Assembly (NCBI RefSeq): GCF_026151205.1 | Contig: NC_087078.1 | Coordinates: 15,641,118-15,705,117 of the forward strand | DNA length: 64,000 nt | Reading direction: 5' to 3' | Source of the DNA: Bolinopsis microptera | Taxonomy: Eukaryota > Ctenophora > Tentaculata > Lobata > Bolinopsidae | Shown: piece after piece, positions 1 to 54,600 of the stretch | Numbering within the stretch: the stretch's first letter is position 1 | Layout: the number at the start of each line of letters is the position of its first letter | Made by a program: the position numbers and the translations under genes | Notes under the pieces: generated by a model | Told to the model about the DNA's origin: nothing | Databases searched by the model: none | The model's input: only the letters and a program-made list of their open reading frames with translations

Positions 1-483
1 CCTGCGGTAAGAGTTAGTAAAACAGTTAGAAGAGTAGGAGGAGTTCCACTATCTTACTTAAAAGTTAGAACATTTTATCTTATCACATTTCAAAGATAAG
101 ACATTTTCGTGAGATCTATTTTGATAGATAGGTGCAACAGCAGCCGGCATCAAAATAAAGTATCAAACCTTCTGAATGTGTGAACCAGCTGGGAGGCGAG
201 GTAGCAGGTCAGATAATGACTGCATGACACCTCTAAAGGCAGCACTGACACAGCTGTCGTAGCATCTGATACTGCTGCTGATAGGATGCTGACAAATTGG
301 GAGCAGGCCCCCCTTCTGTCTAGCCTGTGTTTGTCAATTTTAGTTTGATTAATAGCAGTTTTGTTTTAAAAACTACGTCCCAATTGAACTAGTCACGTCG
401 ACCAAAGCCAACACGACTTATTTCAAATCAATGACACTGTAATCCAACAAATAAATATCAATCCTATTATTAACTGTACTTAC

Positions 484-696
484 TTCTGATGAGGAGGGAT
501 CTGATAGGAGGCCCATATACAGTCTCCAAAGAACACTGTGTAATATAGGAAGTGAGGACACAGTCTTAAGTAGCCAATCTGCTGCTTGTAAGCCATGTGA
601 GACGAGCCACGCTTTCTCGACACCTCTTATCAGCTCTTCTTCCAGGTCTTGTAGTGGTTGTTTCTGTGGGAGACCAGCTTGTGAAACAAAAGGGAA
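484..696 (-). CDS. MYCBP2: MYCBP2 exon: C-terminal helical region
   Basis: Begins FPFVSQAGLPQKQPLQDLEE and contains ADWLLKTVSSLPILHSVLWR, the family helices after the F-P-V segment. Borders cacag and gtaagt; phase 0. Last MYCBP2 exon in the window; the gene continues beyond position 1. Confidence 0.93.
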
Positions 697-9600: not shown

Positions 9601-12600
9601 CTACCTTATCGAATGCTAATAATTGTTTATCTTTTCAATCTAAGGTCGTATAGAGCTAAAAGAGGCCTGAGTAAGAGTGCGGGGAACTTTAACTCTAATT
9701 TTGATGTTACATTGTTTAGAATCTAGATCTATAAAACGGAGTGCGAGTTACCGGGAGCGCCTCGCCATCTTCTTATAATTATATTCCTGCATAGTTTCCT
9801 AACTAAGCTCACATAGCTAACTAATAACAGCGTTTTAAGTCAGGCGTCAGCTAAACACCAACTTGTAGTGTTCATTGATCGATTGTCTCAATCGGCTCCC
9901 ATTAAGATTACATAATATGCACATAGTCAAACAATGGGAGATGACTCAGATGTGGCGAAAAAAATGAACGAATAATTTCCAGCTAACAAAGTGTACATTT
10001 TATTTCTCTTCTGTAGTTGGGATCTTAACAATTGAAACCGCAAGACTTTAAATCAACGAAACATTTTTGATGCTCAACATCTACATCACTTCATTAGTCC
10101 CAGTAAATGCATTTGTTTGTAGTTGTGAAACAATTATATTGTATCTGTACTATTGCCATTTTTCTTTAACAGTTAAAATGGTGGTATCATTTTAGCTTTA
10201 TTTAGTATTTCTGATTTTATGAGACCCGTGTTTGTTTTAAACATTCTGCTCCGAAGAGGATCGAAAGCTTTTTCAGTGGAGCCGCTCAGATATGGGCACC
10301 GTATTGTGTAAATTATTTAGTTATATCTTATACAATATCTTTGCTGCAGAGGAACGGGGTAGTAAACACTGTGTTTCGTTTCGACGTTCGAAAATGTTAT
10401 TCCGGGTACTATTCTGGTTAGGAACTGACCGGTCTAGGGTTTTGGCTGATCGGATGTTTAGAAGAGAAAATTTCATGCTGCCGGATCTTGCCGGAAATTT
10501 GTAGCTTATCCCTTTTAACCTCTGTACTATAATGCTCCTTACCTCAGGTACTTACTTAATGCTTCATTACTGGATCTGGGACTATAGAGTTAATAAAAGT
10601 TATAATCCCTATAATAATAGTGGAGTGCTGCATTGTTTCTTTTAATTTTGGGATATAATACGATAATTTTCAGTTTTCGTTTTAATATGAAACAGTGTAT
10701 AATTAAGTATGGTAAAATTGAGGAAGCATAGAAATCCAGATAGGTTAAAACAACAACCGCTTGATTGAGGTGAAATTTTCAATCGTCGCCTTAATTAAGT
10801 GATAATTTAGTTTCTTATAATAAGTTATGTCGAAAGTGAGCGAGCTATTCCATTTTCGCACTCGATCTAAATTTCTAAACGGCCCTTAATATTTTAATTG
10901 GCCCAGAGTTTTACGTAGTAAACTTTTACATCTCCCCAAAATCTGTAATTTTCACGAAGTTCATGCCGGAACGGCGTCAAACCACAAACTTTCTTTAATT
11001 TAGACTAAGGCAATTATACTTCATTATATGCTAGGTCGAATTTAACTTAAATTAATGATCGAGTAAAATCCTCTTCTGATCCTTTTTTTGTTGTTGTTGT
11101 CTAGTGTTTGCCAGTAATGACAAGGGCTTTGAAACCAATATACATATATAATATGTGTATAATAAATATATTTTTAACGCATTCAAATGAACCCAAACAC
11201 TGAGTCAATAAACCTGATCCCTCGAACTTAAAACAAGTGTCACGTTATCCTGCAGGTCAGACCTGTATCGCAACAACCATTCAGCCGTGCTTGCTCGGTG
11301 CAGTTCCTTACCGCTTTACCCGGCAAACCGATACATGATTCTTAGTGCTGAAAATGTTCTCAAAACCCAACATGAAGCACCTTTAAATGCAGTAATAATA
11401 AGTTTTCCAGGAATAGATGAAGTAAGCATGTTGTCATATTTTGGCACGTAAAACATTAAAAAATGCAACACATGCTGGTGCTGATAACCACTGTGTGGTA
11501 TGTGTTATGTTTCAATTTAAGTTTTCTGAATTCGCTATGTAGTGTTATTGTTTCGTTCTTGAGCTTTTCTGCTTAAGATTTCTAGATTTTTGCGTGTTGT
11601 ATTTTCCTCCAATTTTTCGAACCTAGATGTTTTATATTTATCGCCATATTGTATTTTTAAAGAAAATGAGCATCTATCGATATCAGATCCATACATATTT
11701 TAAAAATAATCGTATTGGTTAATTTTGTCTAACTTGAACAAAATTAACCGATACGATTATTTTAAAACTTGGATTCCGAGTTCGGCAGAAATCACATCTC
11801 AACTGATCACTAATATAACGGTCATCTTACTGAAAGCTTCGTTTTAGAAAGCGCCTTCGTTTCGAAATTTTAAGAACGACGGTAATTTCTCTCCGGGGAG
11901 ACAGAGGGGCGAGAAAGAACTTTCTCAATATAGACAGTTTAGATTTGAACTTGGAGCCGCAAGGCCAAGGGTGCTGGGTGATTTTCAAAATATTGAGTTT
12001 TTGAAGGGTTATTTTTATATAGGGTCGTTGTGACATTATGTGTATACTGTTTGAAACAATTTATTTTATCTGCAGGTATCATGAATAGCCAAGGGTACAA
12101 CAAACTACCTGATCGAAGGACCAGAGTTATAATCGAGATACAAGAAGCTGAAATTAAGCATCTGGCAGAAGAAGAGTTGTGGAGGGAGGAAAAACAACTT
12201 GAGAAAAAGTTAAGGATAAACAGTACCACAATTGGTCCAACTGATGATATCGAACAAAACATAGTGGACTCATATCGGAAATTGTTCAAACTGTTCGATG
12301 AGGATGATAACGGTAGTATCAGCGTGGACGAACTCGGCCATATTTTCAGATTACATCTTGGAAAAGCTCTCTCTGAAGGCGATCTTAACAAAATCATAGA
12401 GCAAGTAGATGAAGACGGAAGTAATACTATTGACTTCAGTGAATTTCTAACTTTAATGGAATCTGAAACGTGGAAAGAAATAGAGAGAGGCGAGATCGTT
12501 GAAGCGTTTGCAGTATTTGATCGGAACAGAGATGGGTACATTGACACTGATGAGTTAAGTTTTGCTCTCTGCAATTACGGGGAGACGATGTCGAAGAAGG

Positions 12601-15600
12601 AGGTGGATGAGTTTGTGAATTTTATTGATCAAGACAATAATGGGGTGATAGACTTTGATGAATTTAAGGCTATGGTGAGTGCAGATGAAGATTTGGGAGG
12701 CTGCCGGCAACAATGATTGGTCTTGTCTCTTCGTGATCAATTCAGATTAATCTAAAATAAGCGTTGTAGATTGAGTTATTTTAAAGGACACCTTCTCGAG
12801 AAGAGTTTTGATAAACGATGTCAAGGACAGTGAGAATCTAAACCTCTTTTATTCTGGTAGACACTGATAACCGATAAACTCACGATTGGCCCTTGATATG
12901 CACTAATTTTGAAATGTTTTTACTATCTTCAGTTTCATGATGGAGAACTCAAACATGTAATATACATAATCCGAAAAAAAAGGAACATGCTGATTAATAA
13001 ATTACATTAAGTGCTTCGAAAAATAGCTATTCAGTAAATTTTTCCTTTTAAATAATAAATAGTTATTCTTGTCTACAAACGATTAAATAAATGAGTCTCT
13101 ATAAGTTCAGGTTAGTCCCCATTCAGATGCATGGCCAAGCTTTGGGGGAAGACATGATCTTATCAGTAAACACCGCTTCTTTGATATCAATGGAAGTGTG
13201 AATGGTAGCGTAGAGCTCCCCTTTGAAGGATATCTCGTATCGACTTTTCAGAAGGGGTTCACCGCCATCTTTCATAGCAGAACCATCTTTTCTTCCTACC
13301 TCCACCATCACTCCTAGCTCCAGCATGGTGTCCGTCAGAGAGTGAGGACGTCCAGAAAGTGTAACCACGTGTTGGAAATCAGGGAATTTGGAGATCACGT
13401 GTGACATTATGGTCCTGTTAGAATCACCGTAGATAAAGTACTTCTGCTTTTCCGGATAGGTCACTGTGGCTGACAGGTCCAAGCGTTGGTAACGGGGGAT
13501 GTCAAGGACTTTCAGTACAATGTTGCCTCCTTTGCCATCATTAACGAGCTTGACTGTCATCTTTCTATCACCATGGAGGATATTGTAAAGGTTGCGAACT
13601 TCTTTGTTTGCGTCACCTGCTTCAAGGACGGTCTCGAACACGACTGAGTGTTTAGAACCGTTAGAATTCATGTAATTCCTCAACATTTCTTTATTCTCAG
13701 GAGAATCAGCCTCAACTTTAACAGAGACCTTGGTACTGATGTTCAGGAATATCAGTATCTGTGAGGTATTCGATGAAGATGGACTCGTCCTTGTCGTTTC
13801 TATTATACGATCCAGATAGAGTGAACTTGTGGGTGACGGCATTATCTTTTACACGACCCATACAGTTAAGAACAATCATACGGAACTGCTCCCTGATTGT
13901 AAAGATTGACTCATTCCATTGCCATGGATTCATGCAGGTGTTGATCAGCACGTTCATATCCTCATCGTCTTCAGCCAAACCTACCCTTTTTTTGAAATCC
14001 TTTAGTGCCTCTCCGTGCTTCTTTGCATCCAAACCAGAGTGTGTAATCATCAATGGTATACGACGAGCGTTAGTCCCAACAAACATCTTTGTCCCATCAG
14101 AAAGAGCAATTTGTTGCTTGTTTACGTCTTCAGCATCTTTGTTGTTCTTGAAGTTCATGGCATCAGAAAGGGCCCACTGTAGCTTGTTGGTTTCTTTAAC
14201 ATCTTTGTTGTTCTTGAAGTTTACCACAAAAGTATTGATAGTAGTATCGGGTCCACAGTCTTTAAGGAAGTGCTTCGCCTTTTGGTCATTGTAGATGTCT
14301 TCCATTGGTTTGTACGCAATGTGATCATTAATCAGTTGCTTGGAATTCTCCATGTTATATTCTTTGGGGAGTTGTTGTAGAGGAACACATACAAATGGAT
14401 CATCTTCTCTAGCCATTGTCAACCACATGGAATAGAAAAGTTTTGCTGTAGCAGTACATTGGCCAAGGATTCTGCCGTAACCTCTGTTGCTCAATCCGAT
14501 GACATTATGAGACATCCATATTCCAGCAGATGCTGCAACAGGCTTAGAACCCTCAATTCCATGGTGATCATCATGGTAATATTCTTGGTGATCATGGTGA
14601 TAGCCATAGTGATCCTGGTGATCACGGTGATCGTGGTGATAGCCATCATGATCACCGTGAAAATCTTCACGATGGAAATGAGCTATGGGGTAGCGCATTT
14701 TCCCGTTGCGGTAGCATAGAGCCCCGCCTGGGTATGGACAAAAGCCAGACTTGTGAGGATCAACAGTAATTGAGTCAGCGAACTCAATATGTCTGAACTG
14801 ATCGTGAACATAGTCACTCATTTCACAGTGTGGCACAAAGCCATCAAACTTGTGACTCTTATTGGACCGTTCATTATGTCGTTCATTTTGTCGTTCATTC
14901 TGTCGTTCACTAGACCATTTCTTGTTATGGACCTGGAATTTTGTTTCCTTCATCAGCATAGTCTTGAAGTAACCTCCCCAGACCCCATCAGCTAGAATAG
15001 CAAAGTTGAGTCCCTTCCCTTTGAATTCCTCCCTTAACTGGTAGATCTCCTTAATGGGATCTACTGCAGATTCTTCTGCAGAGCCCATGACGGCGATGAC
15101 AGATAAAACTGGTGTTTCAGCTTTAAGGAACCCTTCGAGTTTTTCTCTTAGATGGTCGACGCTTTGCCGGAAGTTCACATCTAATTGTATTGGGATAAGG
15201 GCATCAGAGCCAAGACCAAGTAAATTTCCAGCTTTTGACCAAGAGTAGTGGTTATGTGCAGGGGCTGTGTAAACTGGGGCTTTCTCAAGACCATGCTTCT
15301 CGAAGAAGTCGAAGAAGCCTAAGCTCATGATTCCTTCTCGTTCAACAAGCTCGTGGAACTTTATGTCTTCAGTGGAGCCGTGAAATAAGCTCATGTTTTC
15401 ATCCACACGCTTAACTAAGTCACAAATTTCATCAACGTCCACATTCAAGAGTTGCCAATTGGAGCAGTCTTTCAAAGCAGTTGCTTCTCTTTTGTCACTC
15501 TCTTTTCTGTAGACAAGCAAGGTGGTTTTTAATCCTTCATCTATTTGGGCTTGAGAGAGAAACGATAAAGGTCCATCTTTAGCGTCGGCATTTAGCAGAG

Positions 15601-18600
15601 CAGATTTAACAGCCATCGGAACAAACTTCATGTTCCTTGAGGCCCAGACTGCTTCAATGTTGGCAGCAGATCCTCCACTTGTCACATGACCCCAAGCAAA
15701 GGGCTCCTTCCTCTCTGGGAACACGTTGTATCCCAACATATCACACAATTGCTCACCAACCAGTTGTTCGTACTTGGGCGTGGATCGTACAGTTTGGTGA
15801 CTGTAGTTTTGATCATAGTAGCGTTCGTACCTGTGTCTGTTTTTGTGGTCGTACTTTGTTGCGAAATCCTTGTTGTTCTGGTGACAGAGCATAGCTGTTA
15901 TGTATCCTAAGAGACCTGGCATGGACATGTCCCAATTCATTTGACCTTGATAGCGAGGGGAGAAGAACGGGATGTTGCCCTCCATATCTGTTTGCATCTT
16001 CATAAGTTCTTCTTTCATGTCCTCAATTTCTTTACGGTATTCAGGCGAAGACTTCATCTCCTTGTTGATGTAGGCTGGATCAGAAGGACTGTTGTTGTAT
16101 CTTTGCCTAATGTGTCCCTCAAAGATCTCCTGGAAAATGTCCATGAAGACGTCTTTATTCTCAGCTCTTGGCCCAAGAAACCATGCACTCAAGGCTTTCC
16201 ATTGCTGTTCGTGTCTTTCTCCGAACTGTTCGTGCTTTCCTCCGAGAGGAGAAGAGAAGACTTGAGATCTGTCAACTGACATACTCTGAAAGGAATTTGA
16301 GGGTGATTTTACCTGAGGTTAAGTTTTTCTATGTGAAAAATAATATTATATTATAAAAACAGTTTATGACAACTGAATATGAATAAAATCATATTGGCGA
16401 GTCAAGCGACCTTAACTTTCAACATTGATTCAAGCACATAAATTGAAATTCGGGAGTATTCTTCTATGACAATTCATTAAAGATATCATAAATGTAACCA
16501 CACGAATTTTTACTTAAGCAGGAAGAAACATGCTGAATAACACTTTTTGCTAAAGAAACGTTAGTAAGAGAAAAGGTCTAACTTATTAGTTGTCAGTTCT
16601 CTCAAATTACAGAAATAGCCCAATCGGTGAATCGGTGTCAAAGATAGTCTTTCTTAAAGTTCACGTATCATAATATGTGATTAAGCACTGGGAGAAGCAA
16701 TAGAGCTGAAAATCACTGTCTCCTTGATGTTGGCAGTAGTATTGAAGGTAGCCTGCATTTCCCCCTTGAAAGCTATCTCGTAACGAGGTCTTTGCAGCGG
16801 CTGCTTGATCCCACCACCAACCTCAAGTGGAACTCCTTCAACTTCCTCTAGCTCAACCATCACTCCTAGCTCCAGCATAGTCTCCGTCAGTCTTACTGGA
16901 CGTCCTGAAAGTCTTACTGTGTGTTGGAAATCCGGGAATTTAGAGATCACGTGTGACATTATGGTCCTGTTAGAATCCCCGTAAATATAGTACTTCTGCT
17001 TTTCCGGATAGGTCACTGTGGCTGACAGGTCCAAGCGTTGGTAACGAGGGATGTCAAGGACTTTGAACACGATAACACTGTTATCCTCATCATTAGCTAG
17101 CTTCACGTGAAGTCTTCTATCACCATGAAGGATCTTGTGCAGATTGGAAACTTGTACTTCGTCGTCCTTATCTGCATTTAGAGGGACAGTCTCAAATAGA
17201 ACAGGAACACCTTTTGCAGCACATTTGTTGATGTAGTTGAACAGAGTCTTTTTCTCCGAATCAGAGATAGCTTCTACTTTGACAGAAACTTGGTACTGAT
17301 GTTCAGGGATATCAGTACAAGTCATGTACTCAATGAAGATGGATTCATCCTTGCTGCTGTCTACACATGGTGCAGATAGATTGAACCTGTGGGTGACAGC
17401 GGCATCCTTAACACGGCCAATGCAGTTCAGAACTACCATACGGAACTGTTCTCTGATTGCAAAGATCGACTCATTTTTTTGCCATGGATTCATACAGGTG
17501 TTGATCACCACGTTCATATTTTCTTCATCTTCAGCCAAACCTGCCCTTTTTTTGAAATTTTTCAGTCCTTCTCCATGTTTCTTGGCATCCAAACCACATT
17601 GCATCATCATCACTGGTATACGACGAGCATCAGTTCCCACAAATTCGTTCATCGCGTTAGCTAGGGCTACCTGAAGTTTGTTGGCTTCTTTAACATCATT
17701 GCTGTTCTTGAAGTTAACCAAGAAAGTATTGATCGCGGTATCAGGTCCACAGTCTCGGAGGAAGTCCTTTGCCGCTTTGTCTTCATAGATCTTTACCGTG
17801 GGTTTAAATGCAATCTTTTCTTTGATGAGTTTCTTTGCACTCTCAAGGTCATAACCCGTTGGGAAAGGCTGTAACGGAACACACACAAATGGGTCATCTT
17901 CTCTGGCCATTGTTAGCCACATGGAATAGAAGAGTTTTGATGTTGCAGTGCATTGGCCAAGGATTCTGCCGTAACCATTTTTGCTCAGTCCAATGACATT
18001 ATGAGACATCAAAATACCAGCGGAAGCAGCTCTGGGCTTTGACCCCTCAATTCCATGGTGACCATGGTGATCATAGTGACCATGGTGATCATGGTGATCA
18101 TGGTGACCATGTTGATCATGGTGATCATGATGATCACCTTCAGGATGGAAATGAGCTATGGGGTAGCGCATTTTCCTGTTGCGATAGCAAAGAGCTCCAC
18201 CTGGGTATGGACAAAAGCCAGAATTATGAGGATCAATTGTAATGGCGTCAGATAACTGGATATGCTCGTATTGCTTTTGCACATAAGGACTCAGCTCACC
18301 GTACTCTACATAGTTGTCCGATCTGCTCTTATTAGATCCTTTGCCTAGCTTTTCTCTCACAGGGTCTTTCTCTGCTCCCTCAATTAACATGGTTTTGAAA
18401 TAGCCTCCCCACGCTGCATCAGAAAGGAGAGCGAAGTTTAGGCCCTTTACTTTGAATTCTTCCCTTAAATCGTACATTTCTTTGATGGGGTCCACGGCAG
18501 ACTCCTTAGTTGAGCCCATAACAGCCACAACAGCTATGACAGGAATCTCACTGTCAAGCTTTTCCTGGAGTCTCGCTTTTAAGTCCGCGACATTTTGTCG

Positions 18601-21600
18601 GAAGTTTACATCCAATTGGATTGGGATAAGAGCGTTAGAGCCCAGATTCAGTAGAGTTCCAGCTTTTGACCAAGAGTAGTGGTAGTTAGCCGGGGCTGTG
18701 TAGACAGGTGACTGCTTCAGACCGTGCTTTTTCATGAAATTGAAAAGACCTAAGGTCATAACACCCTCTTGTTTAACAAACTCATGGAACTTGCTTTCTT
18801 CAGCACAGCCTTCAGTTAAACCCATTTTCTTTGTTACACTTTCAATTAAGTCACAAATTTCATCGATGTCTACGTTCAAGAGTTGCCAATTGGAGCAATC
18901 TTTCAAAGTAATTGCTTCCCTTTTGCTACTCTCCTTTTTGTAGACTAGCACGGTCATTTTCAATCCTTCATCTATTTGAGCTTGAGAGAGAAACGATAGA
19001 GGTCCGTCTTTAGGATCAGAATTGAGCAGATAAGCTCTCACAACTAGCGGCATGTACTTCATGTTCCTCGAGGCCCAGAGTGCTTCAATGTTGGCAAGAT
19101 CCCCTCCGCTGGTAACGTGACCCCATGCAAGAGGCTGCTCCTTTTTCTCTGGAAATACGTTGTAACCCAACATATCACACAACTGCTCACCAACAGGACT
19201 AGCTGCGGGATCTATGTTGTTCTGATTGAAGAGAAGAGCCATCATGTGGCCCAACATAGCTGGCATGGAGATGTCCCAATTCATATGACCTTGATGCATA
19301 TGACCATACGCTTGATTCATATGATTCATATGAGTATGACCTTGATGCATATGACCATATGATTGATTCATATGATTCCATTGACCTGATTCCAATGACC
19401 TAGATTCATACGACCTTGAGGGGAGAAGAATGGAAAACTGCCCTCCATATCTTGTTGCATCTTCAAGAGTTCTTCTCTCATGTGCTCAATTTCACTACGG
19501 TAAGCATGGGAATTCTTCATCTCCTCAGTAATGAAAGCTGGATCAGAAGGGAAGGAGTTGTCCCTCATTCGAACATGTCTCTCAAAGATGTCCTTGAACA
19601 TCTCCATAAAAACCTCATTATTCTCAGCTCTAGGGCCAAGGAACCACGCACTCATGGCTTTCCATTGCTCATCGCAGTTCTCTCTGACAGGAGAGACTGA
19701 AGTACTGTCCACAGACATACCTTGGATGAATTACAATTAAAATTAAATTCTTGAAAATTTCATTTCCTATTTTGTTAGCAATAGCAGTTCTGAAATCGTA
19801 GATATTCCAGAATTCCTTCAATGGAAGTTTTTATCCTATTGGAATCTACCAAATCATAGTATGGAGGAGTTAGGTGAAGTTGATAATATTATACGAGAAA
19901 TGTAGCCTGTTAGCCGATAGCTCATGTAAGCGTTAAAAGCATATTTAAAATCGCAAAATAACTGGGTTCGAATTCGGGCCCTTGCATATGTGTCGGTGAA
20001 AGTATAGAGTTATTACTAATAAATAGATGCAACTGAAAACGCGAAAGCTTATCAATACTTACGATTGACGTTGTAAATTTAAACATCCCATATCGAATCA
20101 CCCAAACAGAGTTTAGGCAAAACCCCAAAGATTGGCAAGTCACTCGACAATATTGGAGCGGGGCATGATCATGTGACGATCAATTATGACTTCATCAAGA
20201 CTCAAGAGGTTGGGGGTCGGAGTAAAAGACACTACGACAGAGGACACTACGACAGAGGACACTACGACAGAGGACACTACGACAGAGGACACTACGACAG
20301 AGGACACTACGACAGAGGACACTACGACAGAGGACATTACGACAGAGGACACTACGACAGAGGACACTACGAGGACACTGTGGTGGAGGACACTACGACA
20401 GAGGACACTACGACAGAGGACACTACGACAGAGGACACTACGAGGACACTGCGGTGGAGGAAACTACGACAGAGGACACTACGAGGACACTGCGGTGGAG
20501 GACACTACGACAGAGGACACTACGACAGAGGACACTACGAGGACACTGCGGTGGAGGACACAACGACAGAGGACACTACGACAGAGGACACTACGACAGA
20601 GGACACTGCGGTGGAGGACACTGCGGTGGAGGACACTACGAGGACACTGCGGTGGAGGACACTACGAGGACACTGCGGTGGAGGACACTACGAGGACACT
20701 GCGGTGGAGGACACTACGAGGACACTGCGGTGGAGGACACTACGAGGACACTGCGGTGGAGGACACTACGAGGACACTGCGGTGGAGGACACTACGTAGA
20801 TACAGTGGAGGATAGTACTGCAGTGGACGGTAAGATGGAGGACACTATTTAAGCGTATAAGTTTATCGACCGAGCTCCTCCTGGAAATCAGGTCCCCCAC
20901 GTGACTGTTGTTATTTTTATTTCAACAATGGATAGACAAGTACAACATTGTTTAATATAATAGCAATACATCTTTATTTCGCGCTGATAATACTATTATA
21001 TTTGGATGAATACAAGTTGGCGTAAAAGCATCTGCATGTGGTTTGTAAAGAAACTGTTAGATAGCGTTACTCGAGCAGAGTGTTGGTTTCTCCTGGAAAT
21101 GAGTTCTCCGACGCTACTGCTACTACTACATGTACTTTGACAATGGATAAATGAACATTTGAAATAAATTTATTATATGTATATAACGGATTTTAATTTA
21201 TTTTATTTAATAAATGTAAAATTAGACATGAGTTACTTTAAAATGTGCCTCCTAAGTGCACGGCGGTCCAACACGTTTCATGTATAATGATACTTAGAAT
21301 GTTTGACCATTTTCGATGAAAACTTTCCCTTTTGTCTTTTTTGAAACATCTAAAACAAATTTTTCCTACATTTGAAACAAATCAGATTTTTCGGTCAAAA
21401 TTTGGCTATTAAGGGCCCTATGGAACTGCCTCCTTTCCACCATACCGGCACACCTCCAATTAAAATTAAGTTTGCAATTATGTATAATAGCGAGCCCAAT
21501 TGCTCGGTTATCTTTATACTTTATAAAGGCGCATCACCAAAAAACACAAATTTTAAAATTTTATTTTCCACTAATTGTTCTGTCATATAATCAGTTTTAA

Positions 21601-24600
21601 TGTTGTAGTTTTTGCGATACAAAAATCCAAAAGGTAATTTTAATTTAATCCCCCGTTAAGCACAATAAAAACTTACTTGGCAGGAACGGGGTCAGCTGAT
21701 TTGCCGCTCGGATTAGGAGCACTAGAACTGGAACCGTGATCGAACACTACAGTCGGAGGGAAGGGCTCCTCTCCACTCGTTGTACGTAGGATGTAAACCT
21801 GGCGTGTGCGGTGTGTAAGTCATGGTGTGTAAGTCATGGTGTGTAAGTCATGGTGTGTAAGTCATGGTGTGTAAGTCATGGTGTGTAAGTCATGGTGTGT
21901 AAGTCATGGTGTGTAAGTCATGGTGTGTAAGTCATGGTGTGTAAGTCATGGTGTGTAAGTCATGGTGTGTAAGTCATGGTGTGTAAGTCATGGTGTGTAA
22001 GTCATGGTGTGTAAGTCATGGTGTGTAAGTCATGGTGTGTAAGTCATGGTGTGTGGATTAATTTCAGACGGTTAACAAGTTGGGGGGGGGGGGGGGGGGG
22101 GGGCAACCATATTAAAGTATATAATTAAAATGTAGGTTTTTCCCAATTTTGACCCGGGGATATACTTTAATATACTTTAATATACTTTAATATACCTATA
22201 CTATCTCGATTCAAAATTTGGCCGCATAATTTCTTTAAAGGCCTATAATGATTGTATAGATTAGATTTACCTTTCATGTAAAGTTAGTCTATTCAAAGAT
22301 ATTGATACTTGACCAATTTATGGGCCAAAATATATCAAATTTGGTGCATATTCCCAAATATGGGCATATGGTTTTTGATTCATAACTTAGCCATTTTTGT
22401 CCAGTCTCGATGAAAATTCAAATACAAGTTCAGGGGACCACTAGCTTCAAGTAGAGCACCTTAAATCGGGTTTTTTGGGCATTTTTAGGTGGTTCTGCAT
22501 AATTGGGCCAAAAAGGGACCAGATATGGGCGCGGCTGCCCTGCACGATTGGCGAATTTTTGGTGGAATATTCTATCTAGCTAGCTACAGACCGCTTATTT
22601 TTTAGATTTTCTTAATGGAGAGGCTGGGCCTGGATGGCCCACGAGAAGATAGAAAGATGAACTAAGACAACATGTGAGTAGTCGCTAATTGTCACACCGG
22701 TCTGGTCCAGATCCTCGGGTACAATTAGCTGCGTTTGGTGCGGTTTGCGAAATTGACAACAGTGGTGATATGCTGGTTGTCAAATATTTCATTGACTGAG
22801 AGGTCCTGGAAATATTGCCCTCTTATTTGGGCAATAGCCGGGCACTGTCCAATAAAGTGTTAAACAGTCTCCTCTTCGTCACCACACATAAGACAAGCAC
22901 TGATGCTTGATTTGAAAATGAAGTGAAGGTGTTTGTGCAGGCCACAATGTCCCGTGATAAGGTGTACTGCAGTTCTGTCATTTTGTCTGTTGTTGCTAGG
23001 TGTAGTGTTAAGGTTTTTGATGATGTTGACGTGTTTGCAGCCGAGTGTCATTTTGGTGTGTCTGGAAGTAAAAATTGCTAAAATATTGATTATGACGTCG
23101 CGTGATGTGATGACTGATGTATATACTTGGGGACTATGAGGCATGATAACATTTGGTATTACACGCAATTGTCTTAAAATACCTTGTTGGTGGATTGAAC
23201 ATTTCATTTAAATCTTATAATTAGTGATTTGTTAGATGAATTTGCTTTAGTTTTTAAATTTATCTTTATTTTTAATTGATTTTATTGTTCGGGTTTTGTG
23301 CTTTTTAAAGGAATACATATATACATATAATGTTGACACTTAACATTAATAATTGCTGATAATTAAATTCTGTGTAACTTAGATTTTCCAGCTTAGACTT
23401 AAAGTTAAAGCTGTGTCCAACCGATTGTGTTTGACCATTTTGTTTTCTGACAACTTAAAAGCTCAAAAATCTATCATGCCCCACACAAACCGTTTTGAAC
23501 GTCCTACGTACACTAAAAACCGCGATTCACCGTACAGTTTGCGGGAAAAGAAAATAGTAAATTGGGGTTTTGCTGTACCTTAGGGCCAATAAATTTGGTT
23601 ACCATAATTTTGGTTACCATAATTTTAGTCAAAAAATTCGCAAATTTTTAGTCTACAACAATTTTAGTCACATTTTTCGACTTTTTGAGACCATTTTCAA
23701 TTCCATACGGCGTATAGTTTATATCGATATGATCCTTCAGCCGTTTCAACAGAGCATGCATTGGGATGGATCGATTGAAATGTAATTTCCAAGAGGAGCT
23801 CTAACCATTTAAGTGCAATAGGACTTTGGTACGGTTTTGTGCAGTAGCAACAGTGATGTTTAGTTATTGACATTATATTAATCATAAAGCCCTATAAAGT
23901 TAGTCGCCGAAAAATGTAGTCTCATGAAGTTTGGTTTACAACAATTTTAGTCAAAAGTTTAACTAAATTTATGGTAGACTAAATTGGTCGTTCTTAAGGT
24001 ACACAATGTTTTGGGATCTTAATTCTTACATTGTAAAGTTATAAATTTATAATATTGAATACTTCAATTTGGCTCATCACCAGCTCAACTATAGCCCCAG
24101 GGACCAGCTATCCTGCCCACCTTATTGTATAACCTTCAAGACGAGGATAATTCTATAGGTTAATAAATCTATATTCTATAATCTATAATTAGATGATTAT
24201 TAATTGTTTAATTGTTACAGCTCATTATCAACCTACCTACCTATTGAACCTATTGAGTATTGAGAGGTTAAGAAGTGGGCATCTTCGCGGTCACCGTGCT
24301 ATATGCAGACCACCTCATTGACTGTTTATTATTATTTGACTCTGGGTAACGCTCCTCCGACCTGTACTACCTCATTAATCCAGATCTTACTTATTGTCAT
24401 ACGGAGTGTTTTAGATTCCTTATCAACAGATAATTTGTCTACCTCTCTTTATCCTAATTAAGTAATTATGACCCAATTAGCTTAACCCACTCTGCAACTG
24501 TCGTGAGTGTAATTTATTATTTATTAATTTATTATGGTCCGGCCATCTATATTCTGACCGTCTAATCTTGTTATTATAACTGGGTTGATTTGTGAGCGAT

Positions 24601-42600: not shown

Positions 42601-45600
42601 TTCACTATGCAATTTCGACTAAATTCATGTAGATATCCAATCCAGTTCCATGCACAACTGTTGTTTACATTTGGTCTAGTTAGACACAATTTGTTTCAGA
42701 GTGACTCGATAATCGCAATATCAAATTAAGATATTATTTAAATGGTCCATGTCATGCAATGCAGAAATATCCTCATAAATTGGCAACTGCCAAAGTGACA
42801 CTAAAGTTATTGCTAATTCCTTTACAAAACTTAGCAAGTGCTATTTACAATATCCTAATGGATCATGGAAATTGAAATGTTCAATTTTCTTTTCATAAAT
42901 AATAATTATAATGCGAAGTTTTATTTACCCCAAGTTTGGAGAGTAAGTAGGTTAAACTGGGAATGCCCCTTCCCAGGGACCACATCACCCCTCATAAACC
43001 ATTAAATATCATGGGAGACCATGCACAGCCTCGAATTATAGTATAATGACTTCATTTTTTTTTTAATGACCTCATTTTACCTCATTTTACCTCATCCCAA
43101 TTTTGCCTTTTTTGGCTGGCCTCATGAGGTAAAATGAGGTTGACCCCCCCCCCCCCCCCCCCCAGAATTATTATCACGCGTAATACGAAAACCACTAACC
43201 AGTATCCTGATCTACTTCAAGTCTGTCTATTTTTTCCAACAGGTCAATTGTAATAGCTTCGCACGATAGTTTAAGAAAGAAGGCCTAAAAATAAAGCAGG
43301 ACATATAAAATATATTACCTTCAGCGCAAGTGGTTTCTTAAAGTTTATCCGGCAAAAGTGTCCTTTTGCCTGGGAGTTCTTGACCTGACCCGCATGACTG
43401 AGGACAGTCTTCCACTTGTCTTGACTGTCCTTCACGAACACTTCAACGTCACATGATGTATCTTTTATCGTCTGTACAAGGAATATGATTAACTTGAATA
43501 TTTAAAATAACAGAGGATGGACTTGGATGGCCCACAAGAGGATAGCATGTAGATGCTCCGGGTTGTGGAAACCCTCCAGGACGATAATTCCGGGGATAAT
43601 TTCTATATGAAATACAAGGAATGTTGAAAAATTGTTTTTTCTCTAGAAATTCTTTGTCTTCTATGGGGCGCATTCGTGATATATGAGCATAAACCTAAGC
43701 CACGATTAGGTCCAGATAACCTGCAACTCACCTGAAATATCCCAATACCGCTCAGGAACACATTGGGGTTATCAACTTTAAAGGAGATGACATCAGGCTT
43801 AGCTTTTGGGTTCCAGGAGGAAATGTTAACGGAGGAAAATCTTGAGGGTGTTTCCTTATCTACAGCAACAGACAAAGGTTTGAAGAGGTCCATAGACGCA
43901 AGGACGATTTGTTGAAGAATTGTCTTCAAGAGATTCCTGGCTGATAAGCCGGCACTTGTCTAAAAATTTGTTGGTCAGATGCTTAAAAATATGAAAAACA
44001 AAAGGAAAAAAACAAATGAGTAATTGAGATTAGACCTGCGGGTGTTGGTAAAATATTGCCGCTGTTTTTGCTGCAGCAACATTACGCCCCCCCCCCCCCC
44101 CCCCCAACATTAACACTTACATCAGACATAGCCAGGCTCACAACGTTCCCCAGGACTGTTCTGTAGTTGACATTGTTCAACGTTTCAAAAAGTGTCTGAT
44201 CCAGGGAGACATTTTCGTCCAACCCTCCATCTTGAGAACCCAGGGACATGTCGGAGGAACGAGGCATTATCATCCCTGTTAGTGTTCCGTAGTGGAACAG
44301 TTCCTGAATATGTGAATCAAATTATGAAATCAGAGGAGCCGACAGTTATTTTGAATTAATTGGATTACGCCACTCACCACTGCAAAGATTAAATTTTGGT
44401 ATCAGTATTTTTAGTAGAAGAGTGCTTGGAAAGAAATAATCAATGGATTCAATATAAATGATTAAAAACTCACATTAGTTATGCCACTTCCTTGATAGCA
44501 CATAGCTTGTAGTATAGTCCTCAATATATTCCCATACTTCTCCCCCTTATCATTGTACGACTGAAACGCAGACAGAAAACTGGCCCAAATGTGCTGGGGT
44601 GACTTGTAAAAGAGATGGTAATGTTTGCTGTACACCTTGGTAACTTTCTTAACTAACAAGGAGTCACTCGACACGGGAAGTTGAAGGATTCCTGACAACA
44701 AATCCTGACATTCCTTCAGGAGCCGCCTCTTTTCGGTGGTTTCTTGTTGATGTGGGGAAACCGTCAGGAAGTTGTTCAGCATGCTGATAGGGACTGATAA
44801 TTTACACTCCAAACTACTTTGTTTAGGGTCGAAGCTGTGGTCGCTGATAATGCTGGCAATGCTGATGTTTGAAAATAGGGAGAGATCAGAGTTGGCAAGG
44901 TTCAGGGAGAGGGCAGATTTGTTGATTTTCCCAGCATCACTTCGTTTGGTCATGATGTAAGTGTTCAGAGCGGTGAAGCTTAGTTTTATAATTCCAAGGA
45001 GATGATCCAGTCCAAGCTCCCAATTACCGAGTGACATGGCATCTACGTTACTGGACAACGGGTCTTTAGAGTCGGCCTCCTTCCTGAGTAAGGTTCATTT
45101 ACAATTTGATTGGTTGTGAAAATTATAGATCTGTTCAAGCTGGTTTTATGCCTACTTGTACAATTTGCATATTATTTCACGGCCATGAAATATGCCGAAA
45201 TCAGGCCACCTAGTAATAGAAATTGCGATTAAAATTGTAGCCACTATTAAGTATTGCCACGGTTCCTGTTATGCAGGGGGGGGGGGGGGGGGGGGGTTGA
45301 GGGCGGTGGTGGGAGTTAAAAACACACATGGGGGGGGGGGGGGGGTGACAATTGTTGTTTTCTTGGTGGACTCGGGCCTCGTCCGCACGCACTCTCTCTT
45401 CGATACACAATTTAGGACTCGATGCTTCCCCTGGTAATGCGATCTCGGAAATAAATAATTTTGGCGCTTCGCGCCACAGCCTGAATTTCAAAAATTTTCG
45501 GGAAGGACAAAAGGAAATTGCAGCATGTGCAGAATCTCGATTTTTCCAATTCTCTGCAACAAATCGCGATTTTTCACGTTTGCCGTGACAAATCGCGATT

Positions 45601-48600
45601 TTCTCAGATCCTCGCGACAAATCGCGATTTTTTCAGTTCTCCGCGACAGATCGCGCATTTTCCTTAATATAATTTCCTTAATAACACTATAAATCAGTTA
45701 TCGGAGGACCAAATTCGCGTATTTTCCTTCGAATCTGCGGGCCAAATATCACATTCTATGTAAGTACTATAAAGCCCTTGGTCACAGGGAGGAAGCTAAT
45801 AGTATTCTTTGGAAGTCAGTTTTTATCGCATCAAAAAATATCCGTCGCAACCGAAGATACAGCCGATTAAAATGTAGCTCGCACTGAACACAACGTAATC
45901 AGTATCACCACAAAACCCATCAAAATGTCGCTCGCAAATCTTTGCACGTGCACGTATGTGCGCTTTTGAACACCGTTACCATGGTTACAATGGAACTTCT
46001 ATTTGTTTACTTAATTTGCACGTGGGCGGTCGTACATATATACATTATACTGCAGAAATATTTCTTTGAATTATAATAGAGACTAGAAAACCCGTGGTCA
46101 CAGCCCACAGGGAGGAAGCTAATAGTATTTTTTGTTATTAAGTTTAAATCGCGTCAAAAAATATCCTACACAACTGAAGATACAGCCAATCAAAATGTTG
46201 CTCGTACTAAACACAGCGTAATATCAACAAAACCGATCAAAATGACGTTAAAACAATCATTGCACGTGCGTGTAATAACCCTCGTTACCATGGTTACTAC
46301 GCAAGTTCATATTTTTCGTTTGATTTGCACGTGGGCGGTCGTACATTATACATTTTTATACAGCAGAAATAATTCTTTGAATTACAATATCTTTCGAATT
46401 ATAAGTAAGATATGAAACCAATCACATCCACAGCCTTCCGAATGTAGGTACGGACTTCAGAAAACCGAAAAAATATTTTCGGCTCATAATGATCAGGGTA
46501 GCATGAAACATGAACAAAAGTAGTTTTCAGAAAAATTTTAACTTAAATTTAAAAAATTGGCCCTTTTTTGCCCAAAATTTTGACTAGAGTCATTTTCGGT
46601 CCGAATCATTTTCGAATTGCGAAGGAGAGGCCTGCCTTCCGAGATTGCATTACAAAGGGGAACCCTCGAGTCCAAAATCGTATATTGAAGGGTAGGTGCT
46701 GACTTCGAAAACTGAAAAAATATTTTCGGCTCATAATGATCAGGTAGCATGAAACATGAACAAAAGTAATTTCCAGAAAAATTTTGACTTAAATAATTAA
46801 AAAAAGTTGGTTCTTTTTGGCCCTTACCCAGATTTTATGCTTTTATAATGTGCTTCCTACACCCCTGTTTGTGGTATGTGGGCACCAAGCTAGTCTAATG
46901 TCGTTTGTGTTGTGAAAAATTTCCTTGCTATCTTCCGTGTCGCACCTGATCGTTAGGAATGACACTAAATATTTTAACTATTTTAACAAGTACAGTTTCC
47001 ATCTCGTATGTGGCTGAATTTATGTACGGGTGGGGTGGGGGGGGGCCGGGGGGGGGGGCAAAAGTCAGTACTCATACGTTGGCCTTAATAGCTCAGTCAC
47101 TGAGTGCCCAATTGTAATAATTCTTTCTGGTATGAGTTACTACCACCACTTGCACTGGTTCAAAGAATTTGTCAAATTATCGAAAAATATTCGTGTTCAT
47201 TTGTTTCAAATAAAGGTTCAATTTCGCATTTATTTGATAGTTTGGATAGTCGGATCGAGCCAAATTTTATTGAATGGTGTTTGGCCATTTAAATTACCTT
47301 ATCCTGAAGAAATGAGAGTTGTAGCTTCTCAACTGACCGAGATATGAAGCATAAGTTTGTTCATCACGTGTGATCAGGTGATTGGGTTGAGGATAGATCC
47401 GCATTATGGGATTCGTACAGACTACAGAGAGCCCAATTACGGTGTCGTAATTGGGTAATCACTGAGTAGTGAGTACCCAATCAATTTTTCTAACGAGATA
47501 AACAAATTGCTTGATAACTTCGTCATTTTAAATCCGTTTCGCACCATCTTTTCAGATTTTATTCCGGATTAAATGACCTATTGCAATATGTTACAACGGA
47601 GTCTCTAACATCTTCACAATCAGCAGTATAAGCAATTCAATGTTGATTGGGTGTGGCCCCAAAAAATCGAATTTTCAAATTTTGGTGACGGAATCCTCGA
47701 ACAAGTAGAGAAGTAGGTACAGTATGCCAAAACACGGCGGTGGTATAAGACGCAACGTATGGGTACTTTGGCCCCCCCCCCCCCCCCCCTGTAGTCGGAT
47801 CCCAACCGTTCTAAAAGGCTATCTCGTTAGCTTTTCGTGTTAAGGGGGGGGGGCCAATGGATATTTTTTTGTGAAACTTGATTTCGAGATAGTAGTTGAC
47901 CAACAAACAAAGACCAGTGACCGAACTTTTGAGGGGGTCCCGGACCCCAACCGCCAAACGGTGCGCGCAGGGCAGCCACGCCCATATTTGGTCCAAATTA
48001 GGCCCAATTTAGCCAAATACCCTGAACATACCCAAAACCAAGGTTTATGGTGCTCTACTTGTAGCTAGTGGTCTCCTGAACTCGTATATGAAATTTCATC
48101 AAGATTGGACGAAAAATGACAGAGTTATGAGCCAAAAACCATATGCCCATATTTGGGCATACGCACCAAATTTGGTAGATTTCGGCCCATAAATTGGCCA
48201 AATATCAATATTTTTGAATGAAACTTACTTTATATGAAAGGTAAGCCTAAACTACATATTATCTGTAAGTTATAGCTTTATATCTGTTTAAATGTGGATA
48301 CTAAGGCGAAAAAACCACAAAAAATGAACTAAATTGCCCATATCTCGGTTCGCGATATTTGCGGAATTGATCTCATTAAAATTGTAACAACTCAATCAGT
48401 TTTCAAAATTTTTGCATGAAATTTTCGGAATCGACTCGAAATTGCATTTCCACCTTATTTTAAATACGGATTTTTGATTTAGGCCTCCAAAAAAATTTGG
48501 CGGCCAAATTCCAAAATTATCTCACAAAAATTCAGAATTTGGCCGCCAAATTTTTTTGGAGGCCTTAATCAAAAATCCGTATTTAAAATAAGGTGGAAAT

Positions 48601-51600
48601 GCGATTTCGAGTCGATTCCGAAAATTTCATGCAAAAATTTTGAAAACTGATTGAGTTGTTACAATTTTAATGAGATCAATTCCGCAAATATCGCGAACCG
48701 AGATATGGGCAATTTAGTTCATTTTTTGTGGTTTTTTCGCCTTAGTATCCACATTTAAACAGATATAAAGCTATAACTTACAGATAATATGTAGTTTAGG
48801 CTTACCTTTCATATAAAGTAAGTTTCATTCAAAAATATTGATATTTGACCAATTTATGGGACGAAATCTACCAAATTTGGTGCGTATGCCCAAATATGGG
48901 CATATGGTTTTTGGCTCATAACTCAGTCATTTTTTGTCCAATCTTGATGAAATTTCATATACGAGTTCAGGAGACTACTAGCTACAAGTAGAGCACTATA
49001 AACCTTGGTTTGGGCATGTTCAGGGTGTTTGGCTAAATTGGGCCTAATTTGGACCAAATATGGGCGTGGCTGCCATGCGCGCACCGTTTGGCGGTTGGGG
49101 TCCGGGACCCCCTCAAAAGTTCGGTCACTGGTCTTAGTTTGTTGGTCAATTGCTATCTCGAAATCAAGTTTCACAAAAAAATACCCATTGGCCCCCCCCC
49201 CTTAAAAGCGATTTCTCAACGGTTATCACCTCTCTAGATGATTCTTAAAACATTTGGACACTATTGCATTTTTGAAAAAAATGCAATAGTGGCGTTTTCG
49301 GCCACACCCTTTTTCATGGTTTTGCGGTCAGTCGAATTTTTGTATTTCAGCCAAGGAAGGTCTTAAAGACTATTCCGATACACCAAAATGTGCCTAATAG
49401 CCACATTTATATACAACTTATGAAGCAACATATACCTTAAAATGCTTCGTTTCGGAAATATGGCCGAAAAACGGTTTTTGGCTTGACGCAGTTCATAATT
49501 TCCGTGATTTTTGGCATTTCCGCCTAGGAAGGTCGTAGAGACTATTATGATACACCAAAATGTACATAATGGCCACATTGATATACAACTTATGAAGCAA
49601 CATATACCCTAAAAGGCTTATTTTCGGAAATGTGGCTGAAAAACGGATTTTTGCCGAGCGAAAAATGACAATATTCACAAATGGGCTATTGGACTGTTAA
49701 CTAGAAAGGTCTTAAAGACTCATGATCATCATTTGTCACAAGATGTAAGATGACTCACTTTGTGTCCAGAAACTCCTACAAAAATTGGAGAATGATCTAC
49801 TTTATTGGGCATCTCTCTTAATGGGCCAAGCCAGCAGCATATTCGTGTCTTACGAAAGGGCAATTTTTCAAAATTACGGTTTCTTAAGGTCAAAGGGTCG
49901 GCTGCTAACAGCAAATTGTTCGCAATTGCCGACTCATGCACCTCATATAGTTATACTGAAAAACGCTCACTTTAGGAGTCATCAGTAAATAAGTAAATTA
50001 ACTACTGCATGATTTGTGAAAACTCCAACAATTAATTTTCATTGGCACCATGATTTAAATAGAATGTGTGCCAAACCAAAATTCAACTTCAAACTTTTTA
50101 TTTATTCGTGCCATGAAACCATGATATATGTACCAAGAATACCGGGCCTAAAATAAATCGGCACTGGATTCGGGCCAGACTGTTGCTTGACCGCTGACCA
50201 GTACCCCACTTTATAATTATGATTGATTTCGCTGCCTCGACCAATATTGGTCTGTAATCCCTGGATTGAGATCTGTTGGCTGCAGTTAAATTTAGCTAAT
50301 TTCCTATAATACCGCAGTGGTTTGGTTCCCACTTCAGAATGACCACATATTCTTTTTTTCAGTCGCATAGATTTTCCCATCGTATGATAATGATATTGCG
50401 TGTCATTCCCTCGTTTTTTAATCAAGTGGTGACTGGCTAGTTCTTCTATTATTATAGCTGTGAGCTGCCTCAAGATCTTATCTGGGACATGGGCTATATA
50501 TATATATATATCCTCGAACAAGTAGGTACAGTATGCCATCTGCAAAGCAACAACTCTAAAATATAAAACACGGCGGAGGTATAAGACCCAACGTATGGGT
50601 ACTGACTTTTGGCCCACCCTGTATAATAGAAGGTCTCGAGATGCTGATTTAGCTATTGAGGTTTCACATGTGAAATTTTTCCAGCTTTGGGTAAAGTGGA
50701 CTTTAGAGCGGGGAGGGGATCAAAATCTGAACGATCTCTTACTTACGGGACACTACGGATCTCGGGCCTAATAGCTGGTTTTTAATGAGAGGCTGGAGTC
50801 TGGACCTAGATGGTCAACGTGAGGATAGCTTGAGGATTTAGGATGCTATGCCTTCCTTTCATGGGGTTTTGTAACCCCGAAAGCTGGTATATCTCATCTC
50901 ACTTAACCTTGGTTACATCCCGTGCATGTTTAATTCCTGTTTAATTTAATTCCTGTTTAATTCCCGTCCTGTTTCGAATATATAATTAGATTTAAAGGTC
51001 CAATATCAAGCAAAAAAGTCTGATCTCCGGTACTGATGTTACACTTACATTATTTCCGACGCGAGGATCTCCGAAGTCCGATCTTAAAGTTGGATCTCAG
51101 AGCCAAAAAGAGGAACCTAAGCAGTAAGCCTTGGTTCCTCTTAAATATAGAGTCAAACAGGAAATTCGGTGTTATCAACTCAAACTCGGATTCGTAGCAC
51201 AATTGAAAAACCAAAGAATAAAAATCTTAATGAATTTCCCGACATCCTAAAATTAATATCAGGTCGTATTCGGTTCAGTGGCCCAAACTCCAGTAGGTTA
51301 CAAGACTTAAGTTCAAGTCGAGGAACACTTTGATTCAGCATGATCCTTGACTAGTTGGATTTTTCCCATACCATGCAGTTGTTATCTACTAATCACTCCT
51401 AAACTGAAAGTTTTAGAGTCGAATCTCGAACTCTGCCATTCGACCAAGAAATCTTAATCTGAAGTTCTAGAATTACAGTTCTAATGTTCTAGTACTAATG
51501 TATTAGTGCCCTAGATAAGATGTCGAGGCAGCTGTAACAACAAAAGAGACAGCCAGTAACCAATTGATAAAAAAACGAGGGAATGACACACATTATCATA

Positions 51601-54600
51601 CGATGGGAAAATATATGCGAACCAAACCACTGCACTGCGGTATTACTATTATGGTAAATGAGCTAAATTAAACTGCAGCCAACAGATCTCAATCCAGGGA
51701 TTACAGACCAATATTGGTCGAGGCAGTGAGTCAATTATAATTATAAAGTGGGGTACTGGTCAGTGGTCAAGCAACAGTCTGGCCCGGATCCAGTGCCAAA
51801 TTATTTTAGGTCCGGTATTCTTAGTATATATCATGGTTTCATGGAGTCAGGAAATAAATCAAAAGTTGAATTCTGGTCATTACATTTTGGCTAAATTGGT
51901 GCCGATGAAAATTAATTGTTGGAGTTTTCACAAATCATGCAGTAGTTAAACTTATTTACTGATGACTCCTAAAGTGAGCGTTTTTCAGTATAACTATATG
52001 AGGTGCATGAGTCAGCAATTGCGAACAATTTTCTGTTAGCAGCCGACCCTTTGACCTTAAGAAACCGTAATTTTGAAAAATTGCCCTTTCGTAAGACACA
52101 AATATGCTGCTGGCTTGGCCCATTAAGAGAGATGCCCAATAAAGTAGATCATTCTCCAATTTTTGTAGGAGTTTCTGGACACAAAGTGAGTCATCTTACA
52201 TCTTGTGACAAATGTTGCTCATGAGTCTTTAAGACCTTTCTAGTTAACAGACAACAGTCCAATAGCCCATTTGTGAATATTGTCATTTTTCGCTCGGCAA
52301 AAATCCGTTTTTCAGCCACATTTCCGAAAATAAGCCTTTTAGGGTATATGTTGCTTCATAAGTTGTATATCAATGTGGCCATTATGTACATTTTGGTGTA
52401 TCAGAATAGTCTCTACGACCTTCCTAGGCGGAAATGCCAAAAATCACGGAAATTATGAACTGCGTCAAGCCAAAAACCGTTTTTCGGCCATATTTCCGAA
52501 ACGAAGCATTTTAAGGTATATGTTGCTTCATAAGTTGTATATAAATGTGGCTATTAGGCACATTTTGGTGTATCGGAATAGTCTTTAAGACCTTCCTGGG
52601 CTGAAATACAAAAATTCGACTGACCGCAAAACCCTGAAAAAGGGTGTGGCCGAAAACGCCACTATTGCATTTTTTAAAAAAATGCAATAGTGTCCAAATG
52701 TTTTAAGAATCATCTAGAGAGGTGATAACCGTTGAGAAATCGCTTTTAACACGAAAAGCTAACGAGATTCCGTTTCGTCTCTGACTACTGTAGTTAAACT
52801 TAATTAGATTTTGCGGCGAGATGTAAAGCAGTTTATAATCAGTTTGTAGCCTCTACCAGTTTGTAACCAGTTTGTAACCAGTTTGTTACCTCTCCTTCTG
52901 AATTCCTCAAGGTTGTTCACGAAATTGATTTTATAGTTTTGTTTTCTACAAAATCATCTACATAATATAATGCTTTTGGACAAAAATGTGCTTAGGTACG
53001 TGGAATCGGAAGCGTTCGGCAAATTCATTTTTAATCTGCATATTTGCGCTCTGCCATGCGGGCTCCTCAAACCACATACGATTTGGAAGGTCAGCGGCCA
53101 CCGCTTATAGTTATGTGCAATTGTTTGCGGAAAATCGGGGTTTTGTTTGTTTACACTTTTTCCTTTTTTATGTATGGTGTAAAAAAGCTGCCCTAATCGA
53201 ATCAAAGGTTACATTGATGAATGTACCAGAGATGTGCACCGTGTTACTTTTAGGCGGCGGACTGGACGCCAAAATTGGTCGGCGGAGGTGGTCTGACCGC
53301 GGTCTGACTACTAGATATCCGAACAGCAGTCTACTGTGTACATATTAGTAATTTGGTTGTGAAACTAATGTATTTGAATTGATTTCTTAATATCACTCTA
53401 CATTGAAAAACTTATTTATCGCTGTTTTTGTTGATCTGCCGGCCAATACCTCAAAGGTATACCTCAAACGTAGCACCTGAGAAAGTTTCGTGGTTGATTC
53501 ACGTACTTTAGTTCGACACGCACTATAGTCCTTTAATTAGATACAATTTAAACTTATGTGTTATTCAAATTTTATGCATTATTTTATGGATTATGTATTT
53601 TAAGAATGAACAATGCAATTTGTCATATATTTTATTCAGGAAATATCAAGCGCTGATTCCAGGGTAATTTAAACACGTACCACAGAATACTGAACACGGA
53701 AGAAAAATGTAAATTACATTAAATATGCATTGAATTTTTCTTTCGTGTTTAGATAGGTGGCCGGGTCACCCTGGAATCAGCTCAGCGTTCGGCAAATTTA
53801 TTTTCACTATAGTTCGACAACTTAAGTTCGCCAGATATCACCCCTGTCGAACTTTGGTACGTGTCGAACTAGAGTCCAGGTAGCGTACTCTAGTTTCTGC
53901 TCGTAAAGGATCATTGCTTGATATCGGAGATTTCAAAACTCTAGTTCGACAGTCGAAGTTCTCTTGTCTAACTTAAGTACGTGTCTAACTTGAGTCCAGG
54001 TAGCGCACTTTAGTTCGACAGAGTCGAACCTTAATAGGGTTTGTCGAACTACAGTACGTGTCGAACTAGAGTGCGTCTCGAACTTGAGTACTTGAATTCT
54101 ATTTATTTTAGGCTTTGAATTTTTGAAACGTTGACTATCCACCTTTTTCGTACTGAACTTTTTTCTTTTTTTGGCTTCTTTTTCAATGGTTAATAGTTAA
54201 CTGTTCTTTCCGTTAAGCCTCTAATCCACAAATAAGAGTGCTCACCTTGCCGTCTAAGACCACTTTTAACTTTGAACGGTATGAGTGGGGAATTACATTT
54301 GAAGTAGAGGTAAGAAAACTGTCAAATGTGATCAAACAAACGCTTTTGTTTTCAGAAAATGGCTGAGTTACGAAATACCGCGGACACTGTGATTGCTAAT
54401 CCTAGTGCCATACAAAATGACATATCTTTAGCTGAGGAAACCCCACGGCCAACAGACGTTACAGAACACCCTGAGAAAGATGCCCCCAATAAGAAGTCCA
54501 TTCTCGCAAGAATGTCAGGGATAGCCTACATGTCAGTGTCGAGTATTACTGCTACCAGCCAGGGAGTCATATTCCAGTATCTCAGTTACATGCCTACCGG

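Follow-up and report, generated by a model that had tools for sequence, protein, structure and literature searches.

Acceptor-like sites next to the start codons of genes nested in a MYCBP2-type gene of the ctenophore Bolinopsis microptera: probable 3' splice sites and a possible spliced leader

How do intronless genes that lie inside another gene acquire the 5' ends of their transcripts? The question is raised by a 64,000-nucleotide (nt) stretch of Bolinopsis microptera contig NC_087078.1 (positions 15,641,118 to 15,705,117; the window), in which six genes are nested in a PHR/MYCBP2-type host gene (Table 1). Two decarboxylase genes share the strand of the host, while an EF-hand gene, two copies of a G-protein-coupled receptor (GPCR)-like gene and an SLC35G-type transporter gene, four of the six, lie antisense to it on the plus strand. 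A preliminary description had reported an acceptor-like AG ahead of every one of the six start codons and had read it as a mark of spliced-leader trans-splicing. The letters and spacings it quoted are correct in all six cases, with AG 2-6 nt upstream of the ATG. However, the acceptor-like character holds only for the EF-hand, decarboxylase 1 and SLC35G genes, as the GPCR sites are weak and the decarboxylase 2 site reads better as a donor. The three former genes probably carry true 3' splice sites 3-5 nt ahead of the ATG and are themselves intronless, whereas the AGs ahead of decarboxylase 2 and the two GPCR copies probably stand there by coincidence.

Sites were scored with an acceptor matrix drawn up from general knowledge, and ten host acceptors, picked by reading frame and consensus, served as the reference (range -2.7 to 7.0, median 4.0). 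The EF-hand acceptor exceeds the host median; those of decarboxylase 1 and SLC35G fall below it yet outscore three of the ten, and the sites of both GPCR copies (-0.8 for copy 1) and of decarboxylase 2 are among the weakest. Scores and flank shuffles together point to a 3' splice site ahead of the ATG in the EF-hand, decarboxylase 1 and SLC35G genes, with a weak case for the GPCR copies and a poor one for decarboxylase 2. The start codon is the first in-frame ATG of its open frame in five of the six genes; GPCR copy 1 has another 15 nt upstream, ahead of the supposed acceptor.

An AG close to an ATG is common in the window: 26.1% of 2241 ATGs on both strands have one at 2-6 nt (YAG, 11.8%; CAG, 6.9%). 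Moreover, the six sites represent four gene families, because the GPCR copies stem from one duplication and the decarboxylases are paralogues, and counting them as six independent cases was rejected on these grounds. The earlier remark that six of six is hard to obtain by chance was thus overstated, but the excess that it pointed to persists. The fraction of 2240 random ATGs with an equal or better acceptor at 2-6 nt is 0.0013 for the EF-hand gene, 0.0098 for decarboxylase 1 and 0.0094 for SLC35G, compared with 0.025 for GPCR copy 2, 0.039 for decarboxylase 2 and 0.049 for GPCR copy 1. Dinucleotide shuffles of the 60-nt and 150-nt flanks gave 0.0007 and 0.003 (EF-hand), 0.021 and 0.014 (decarboxylase 1), 0.0025 and 0.0055 (SLC35G), 0.028 and 0.039 (decarboxylase 2), 0.011 and 0.056 (GPCR copy 1), and 0.009 and 0.022 (GPCR copy 2). 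When one member per family is combined by Fisher's method after shuffling, the EF-hand, decarboxylase 1, GPCR copy 2 and SLC35G sites yield 6.8e-7 (60 nt) or 6.9e-6 (150 nt), and the EF-hand, decarboxylase 2, GPCR copy 1 and SLC35G sites 1.0e-6 or 3.6e-5. The ATG-adjacent site is also the best acceptor of the last 50 nt in six of six genes, against 193 of 2045 random ATGs (9.4%). The sites, their scores and this excess are direct observations.

Table 1. Coordinates of the host gene, the nested genes and their candidate expression signals (window positions; the score is that of the matrix used for acceptors or donors)
Feature	Position	Strand	Details
PHR/MYCBP2-type host gene	1..62329	-	exons between ~62.3 kb and 27.9 kb or lower; others likely below 8 kb, by eye only
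EF-hand (calmodulin-like) gene	12081..12716	+	one open frame, antisense to host; Pfam EF-hand_7, E 6.6e-29; best solved matches are calmodulins
Acceptor AG, EF-hand	12074..12075	+	first base after, 12076; ATG 12081; 5 nt before ATG; score 5.5, top 0.5% of 7300 AGs
Decarboxylase 1	13123..16282	- (host strand)	Pyridoxal_deC, E 7.9e-11; intronless when aligned with decarboxylase 2; frame break near 13.73 kb
Acceptor AG, decarboxylase 1	16286..16287	-	first base after, 16285; ATG 16282; 3-nt gap; score 2.9, top 3.6% of AGs
Decarboxylase 2	16681..19718	-	Pyridoxal_deC, E 9.5e-14; frame broken near 19.4 kb
AG, decarboxylase 2	19721..19722	-	ATG 19718; weak as acceptor, -0.35; better as donor CAAG/GTATGT, 5.5 (99th percentile of GTs, 5.7)
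GPCR-like copy 1	30438..31457	+	frame broken; further in-frame ATG at 30423
TATA box, GPCR copy 2	34807..34814	+	TATATAAG, exact consensus; at -49; exact matches 0.00061 per nt
AG, GPCR copy 2	34848..34849	+	ATG 34856; 6-nt gap; score 0.9
GPCR-like copy 2	34856..35884	+	one intact open frame, antisense to host
Candidate cis intron before SLC35G	54310..54355	+	46 nt; donor GAG/GTAAGA (6.4, at -49), acceptor TTTTCAG (2.9)
Acceptor AG, SLC35G	54354..54355	+	first base after, 54356; ATG 54359; 3-nt gap; score 2.9, top 3.5% of AGs
SLC35G-type (EamA) transporter gene	54359..55405	+	one open frame, antisense to host; Pfam EamA, E 4e-25

The explanation favoured here is that the 5' stretch of the EF-hand, decarboxylase 1 and SLC35G transcripts would be cut away and a short leader then joined almost directly onto the ATG. 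For the EF-hand and decarboxylase 1 genes a trans-spliced leader would be the likeliest partner, while for SLC35G a local 46-nt cis intron appears at least as likely. The chance that the acceptors are genuine and are served in trans at least at the first two genes is judged to fall somewhat short of even; for this and the competing readings the prior was set by judgement. Trans-splicing of a leader onto the nested genes is plausible, and it is from the sites that we infer both their use and the origin of the leader. A leader taken from elsewhere and a normal short intron would fit the sites alike, and sequence alone does not decide. If they are used in trans, a shared leader would supply the 5' end of intronless nested genes and would help to explain their persistence inside introns; if in cis, the case is an ordinary one.

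Of the alternatives, the one that survives best is that every gene is driven by a promoter of its own and begins with at least one local non-coding 5' exon, with cis introns in the 5' leader throughout and nothing joined in trans. It is somewhat unlikely as an account of the whole set and strongest at SLC35G, where the donor stands 46 nt from the end of the acceptor and the resulting GT-AG pair has both ends of host grade. Across the two strands of the window, only three pairs combine a donor of at least 5.7 with an acceptor of at least 2.8 at a distance of 40-120 nt, the SLC35G pair among them. Under a stricter donor threshold (at least 6.4, same spacing) one of 265 strong acceptors qualifies, most likely that of the pair at 25920; the SLC35G donor rounds to 6.4 and falls below the cut. 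The candidate intron is nevertheless short beside those of the host, for which 11 of the 12 donor-acceptor pairs tried keep the frame at lengths of 119-639 nt (two sharing a donor; one gene and a small sample). Elsewhere, a donor of at least 2.1 is at hand within 600 nt for the EF-hand, decarboxylase 1 and GPCR copy 2 genes. However, the 1 to 5 such donors per gene, among the best eight listed, are close to the ~1.7 expected by chance from the totals and offer no positive evidence outside SLC35G, so that for the other genes cis and trans readings both stand. At decarboxylase 1, a donor at -30 would define an intron of 27 nt, which was rejected as too short. Cis introns in the 5' leader may end next to the ATG, and their likeness to the present case lies in an acceptor a few nucleotides before the ATG and in the matching SLC35G donor, although here local 5' exons are only candidates. 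That leader introns of three unrelated genes should all stop no more than 5 nt short of the ATG would still be unexpected.

That no splicing takes place, with short 5' leaders made from the genes' own promoters and AGs that are coincidental and were picked post hoc, is less likely still. The base rate of AGs near ATGs, the non-independence of the GPCR copies and the decarboxylase 2 letters, which do not resemble an acceptor, all agree with it, as does an exact TATA box upstream of GPCR copy 2. A TATA box usually lies ~30 nt from the start of transcription; at that spacing transcripts would begin near -18, too close to the AG for any splicing there. Against this reading, the density of exact matches predicts such a box by chance in ~3% of 50-nt stretches, and more often across four families, and the acceptor context of the EF-hand, decarboxylase 1 and SLC35G genes is rare by chance even with shuffled flanks.

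Several observations weigh against spliced leaders at the nested genes. The acceptors of decarboxylase 1 and SLC35G score under the host median, and when 400 nt are considered, only the EF-hand and decarboxylase 1 genes have their best acceptor next to the ATG; decarboxylase 2, both GPCR copies and SLC35G have a better one, that of SLC35G lying 247 nt upstream. The excess over the four families, though still real, is post hoc, as the 2-6 nt range was derived from the same data and both range and matrix were fixed after the data had been seen, which makes the p values post hoc as well. The local donor at SLC35G speaks against a partner in trans at that gene, and the TATA box of GPCR copy 2, if used at the usual spacing, would not permit splicing at its AG. 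To our knowledge, no spliced leader is known so far for many groups of animals. Finally, no leader RNA gene was recognized in the window: neither Rfam at gathering scores nor ARAGORN returned anything, and the published Hormiphora leader, slid along both strands, matched at best 25 (plus) and 26 (minus) of 44 positions, compared with 25-29 in 15 simulated windows. The missing leader gene says little, however, because the 718 leader copies reported in 110 Mb of Hormiphora (PMC8527503) correspond to ~0.4 copies per 64 kb. A good acceptor, moreover, need not always be used: in Oikopleura some promoters are described as lying downstream of the trans-splice site, which is thereby skipped (PMC6389100). 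The excerpted text of a Caenorhabditis elegans paper gives no figure for the acceptor-to-ATG distance (PMC9984361).

The combination of nested genes with spliced leaders has been described before, in a ctenophore and in a glass sponge. In the ctenophore Hormiphora californensis, genes are nested in introns on both strands and 56% of Iso-Seq reads are reported to carry a leader (PMC8527503). The likeness is that of nested intronic genes in a genome with trans-spliced leaders, but there the leader was read from complementary DNA, whereas the Bolinopsis sites are known from DNA and the Hormiphora leader has no above-chance match in the window. The glass sponge Aphrocallistes vastus has many single-exon and nested genes and a reported trans-spliced leader, which differs in being predicted on only 4% of long reads (PMC10282587).

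The preliminary description had further suggested that the nested genes may need no promoter of their own. Four of the six are antisense to MYCBP2, so that host transcription is no source of their RNA, and for these the suggestion fails. Only decarboxylases 2 and 1 could be expressed from the host precursor in this way. They lie head to tail on one strand, with 398 nt between the decarboxylase 2 stop and the decarboxylase 1 ATG and 393 nt between that stop and the decarboxylase 1 AG, and thus combine a shared strand and a short gap with an acceptor before the downstream ATG. In the Hydra RFC140/flp operon the downstream gene likewise has a single exon and an acceptor before its ATG, and the upstream stop lies 417 nt from the acceptor; that operon was proven by acceptor mutation and reverse transcription polymerase chain reaction (PMC3273482), whereas the decarboxylase pair is recognized by arrangement and decarboxylase 2 has a weak acceptor of its own. 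The SLIDR paper states that operons had not been reported in ctenophores or hexactinellid sponges (PMC7986045). AATAAA or ATTAAA is absent from the 400 nt past the decarboxylase 2 stop, which is weak evidence, as none follows SLC35G either. A two-gene unit within a MYCBP2 intron, carried in the host precursor without a promoter of its own and freed by leader trans-splicing before each ATG, is very doubtful. If true, it would mean expression of a same-strand gene pair out of a host intron, the sole arrangement here that would surprise. Joining of the decarboxylase acceptors in cis to upstream MYCBP2 exons, which would make the enzymes alternative 3' parts of host transcripts, fits the way the two genes sit, in host orientation, between host frames at ~27 kb and others below 8 kb, but is hardly credible, as it does not apply to the antisense EF-hand, GPCR and SLC35G genes and the MSVD start kept in both decarboxylases speaks for separate proteins.

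The two decarboxylases are paralogues with 64-70% amino-acid identity, a ratio of nonsynonymous to synonymous substitutions (dN/dS) of 0.18-0.33 and a dS of 0.64-1.03 over three aligned pieces. Both proteins begin with MSVD; immediately ahead of the ATG the likeness falls away, and the two AGs are out of register. The best solved relative of decarboxylase 2 is 6ebn (E 3.4e-100), which carries the name of a non-canonical aromatic amino acid decarboxylase. With decarboxylase 2 as the query, a scan of prokaryote genomes and another of viral contigs found no relative. Each otherwise conserved gene has a single frame break on the minus strand (13.73 kb and 19.4 kb), reflecting recent decay or an assembly error, and each contains a His/Asp-rich repeat within the enzyme (14540-14660 and 18040-18140, minus strand).

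The GPCR label comes from hydrophobic segments together with an NPIIY motif that was read directly. Pfam gave nothing for copy 2 at E 10 or less, its best solved chain reached only E 0.21, and a single-sequence structure model shows helices at low confidence (mean predicted local distance difference test score, pLDDT, 46) and was of too low a quality for a structure search. The copies are 92.3% identical across 1527 aligned columns, in an alignment that begins 194-197 nt ahead of the ATG and extends past the stop, and their AGs are non-independent because the AG was copied along in one DNA duplication. SLC35G is the name given in the preliminary description, the Pfam match itself being EamA; a scan of viral contigs with SLC35G found no relative, and two such scans with two repeat patterns found none either.

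The host gene was recognized by Pfam matches to RCC1 (60534-60806, E 5.5e-13) and PHR (57638-57841, E 2.3e-8), together with a second PHR match (43606-43959, E 9.1e-5) at 23.5 bits against a cut-off of 23.6 and a filamin repeat (27906-28079, E 1.2e-4) under its cut-off; most of the remaining host frames scanned had no Pfam match. A 145-codon open frame on the minus strand (50102-50539) has no Pfam match, and its region has a repeated partner near 51.7-52.6 kb. A 15/26-nt tandem array at 20228-20796 keeps three frames open for more than 200 codons and is probably no gene. An element repeated on the plus strand (25920-25974 and 34280-34338) contains an intron-like stretch of 55 or 59 nt (GTAAG...TTTAG) followed by GGGGTCGTTCACATAT and is probably a transposon remnant. 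Hexamer-based tandem arrays with G+T-rich units occupy 62457-63146 and 3429-3632. The window contains long runs of G or C (14 G and 7 C runs of at least 8 nt, maximum 23 nt), whereas no run of A or T is longer than 10 nt, and these long runs are a possible signature of the genome.

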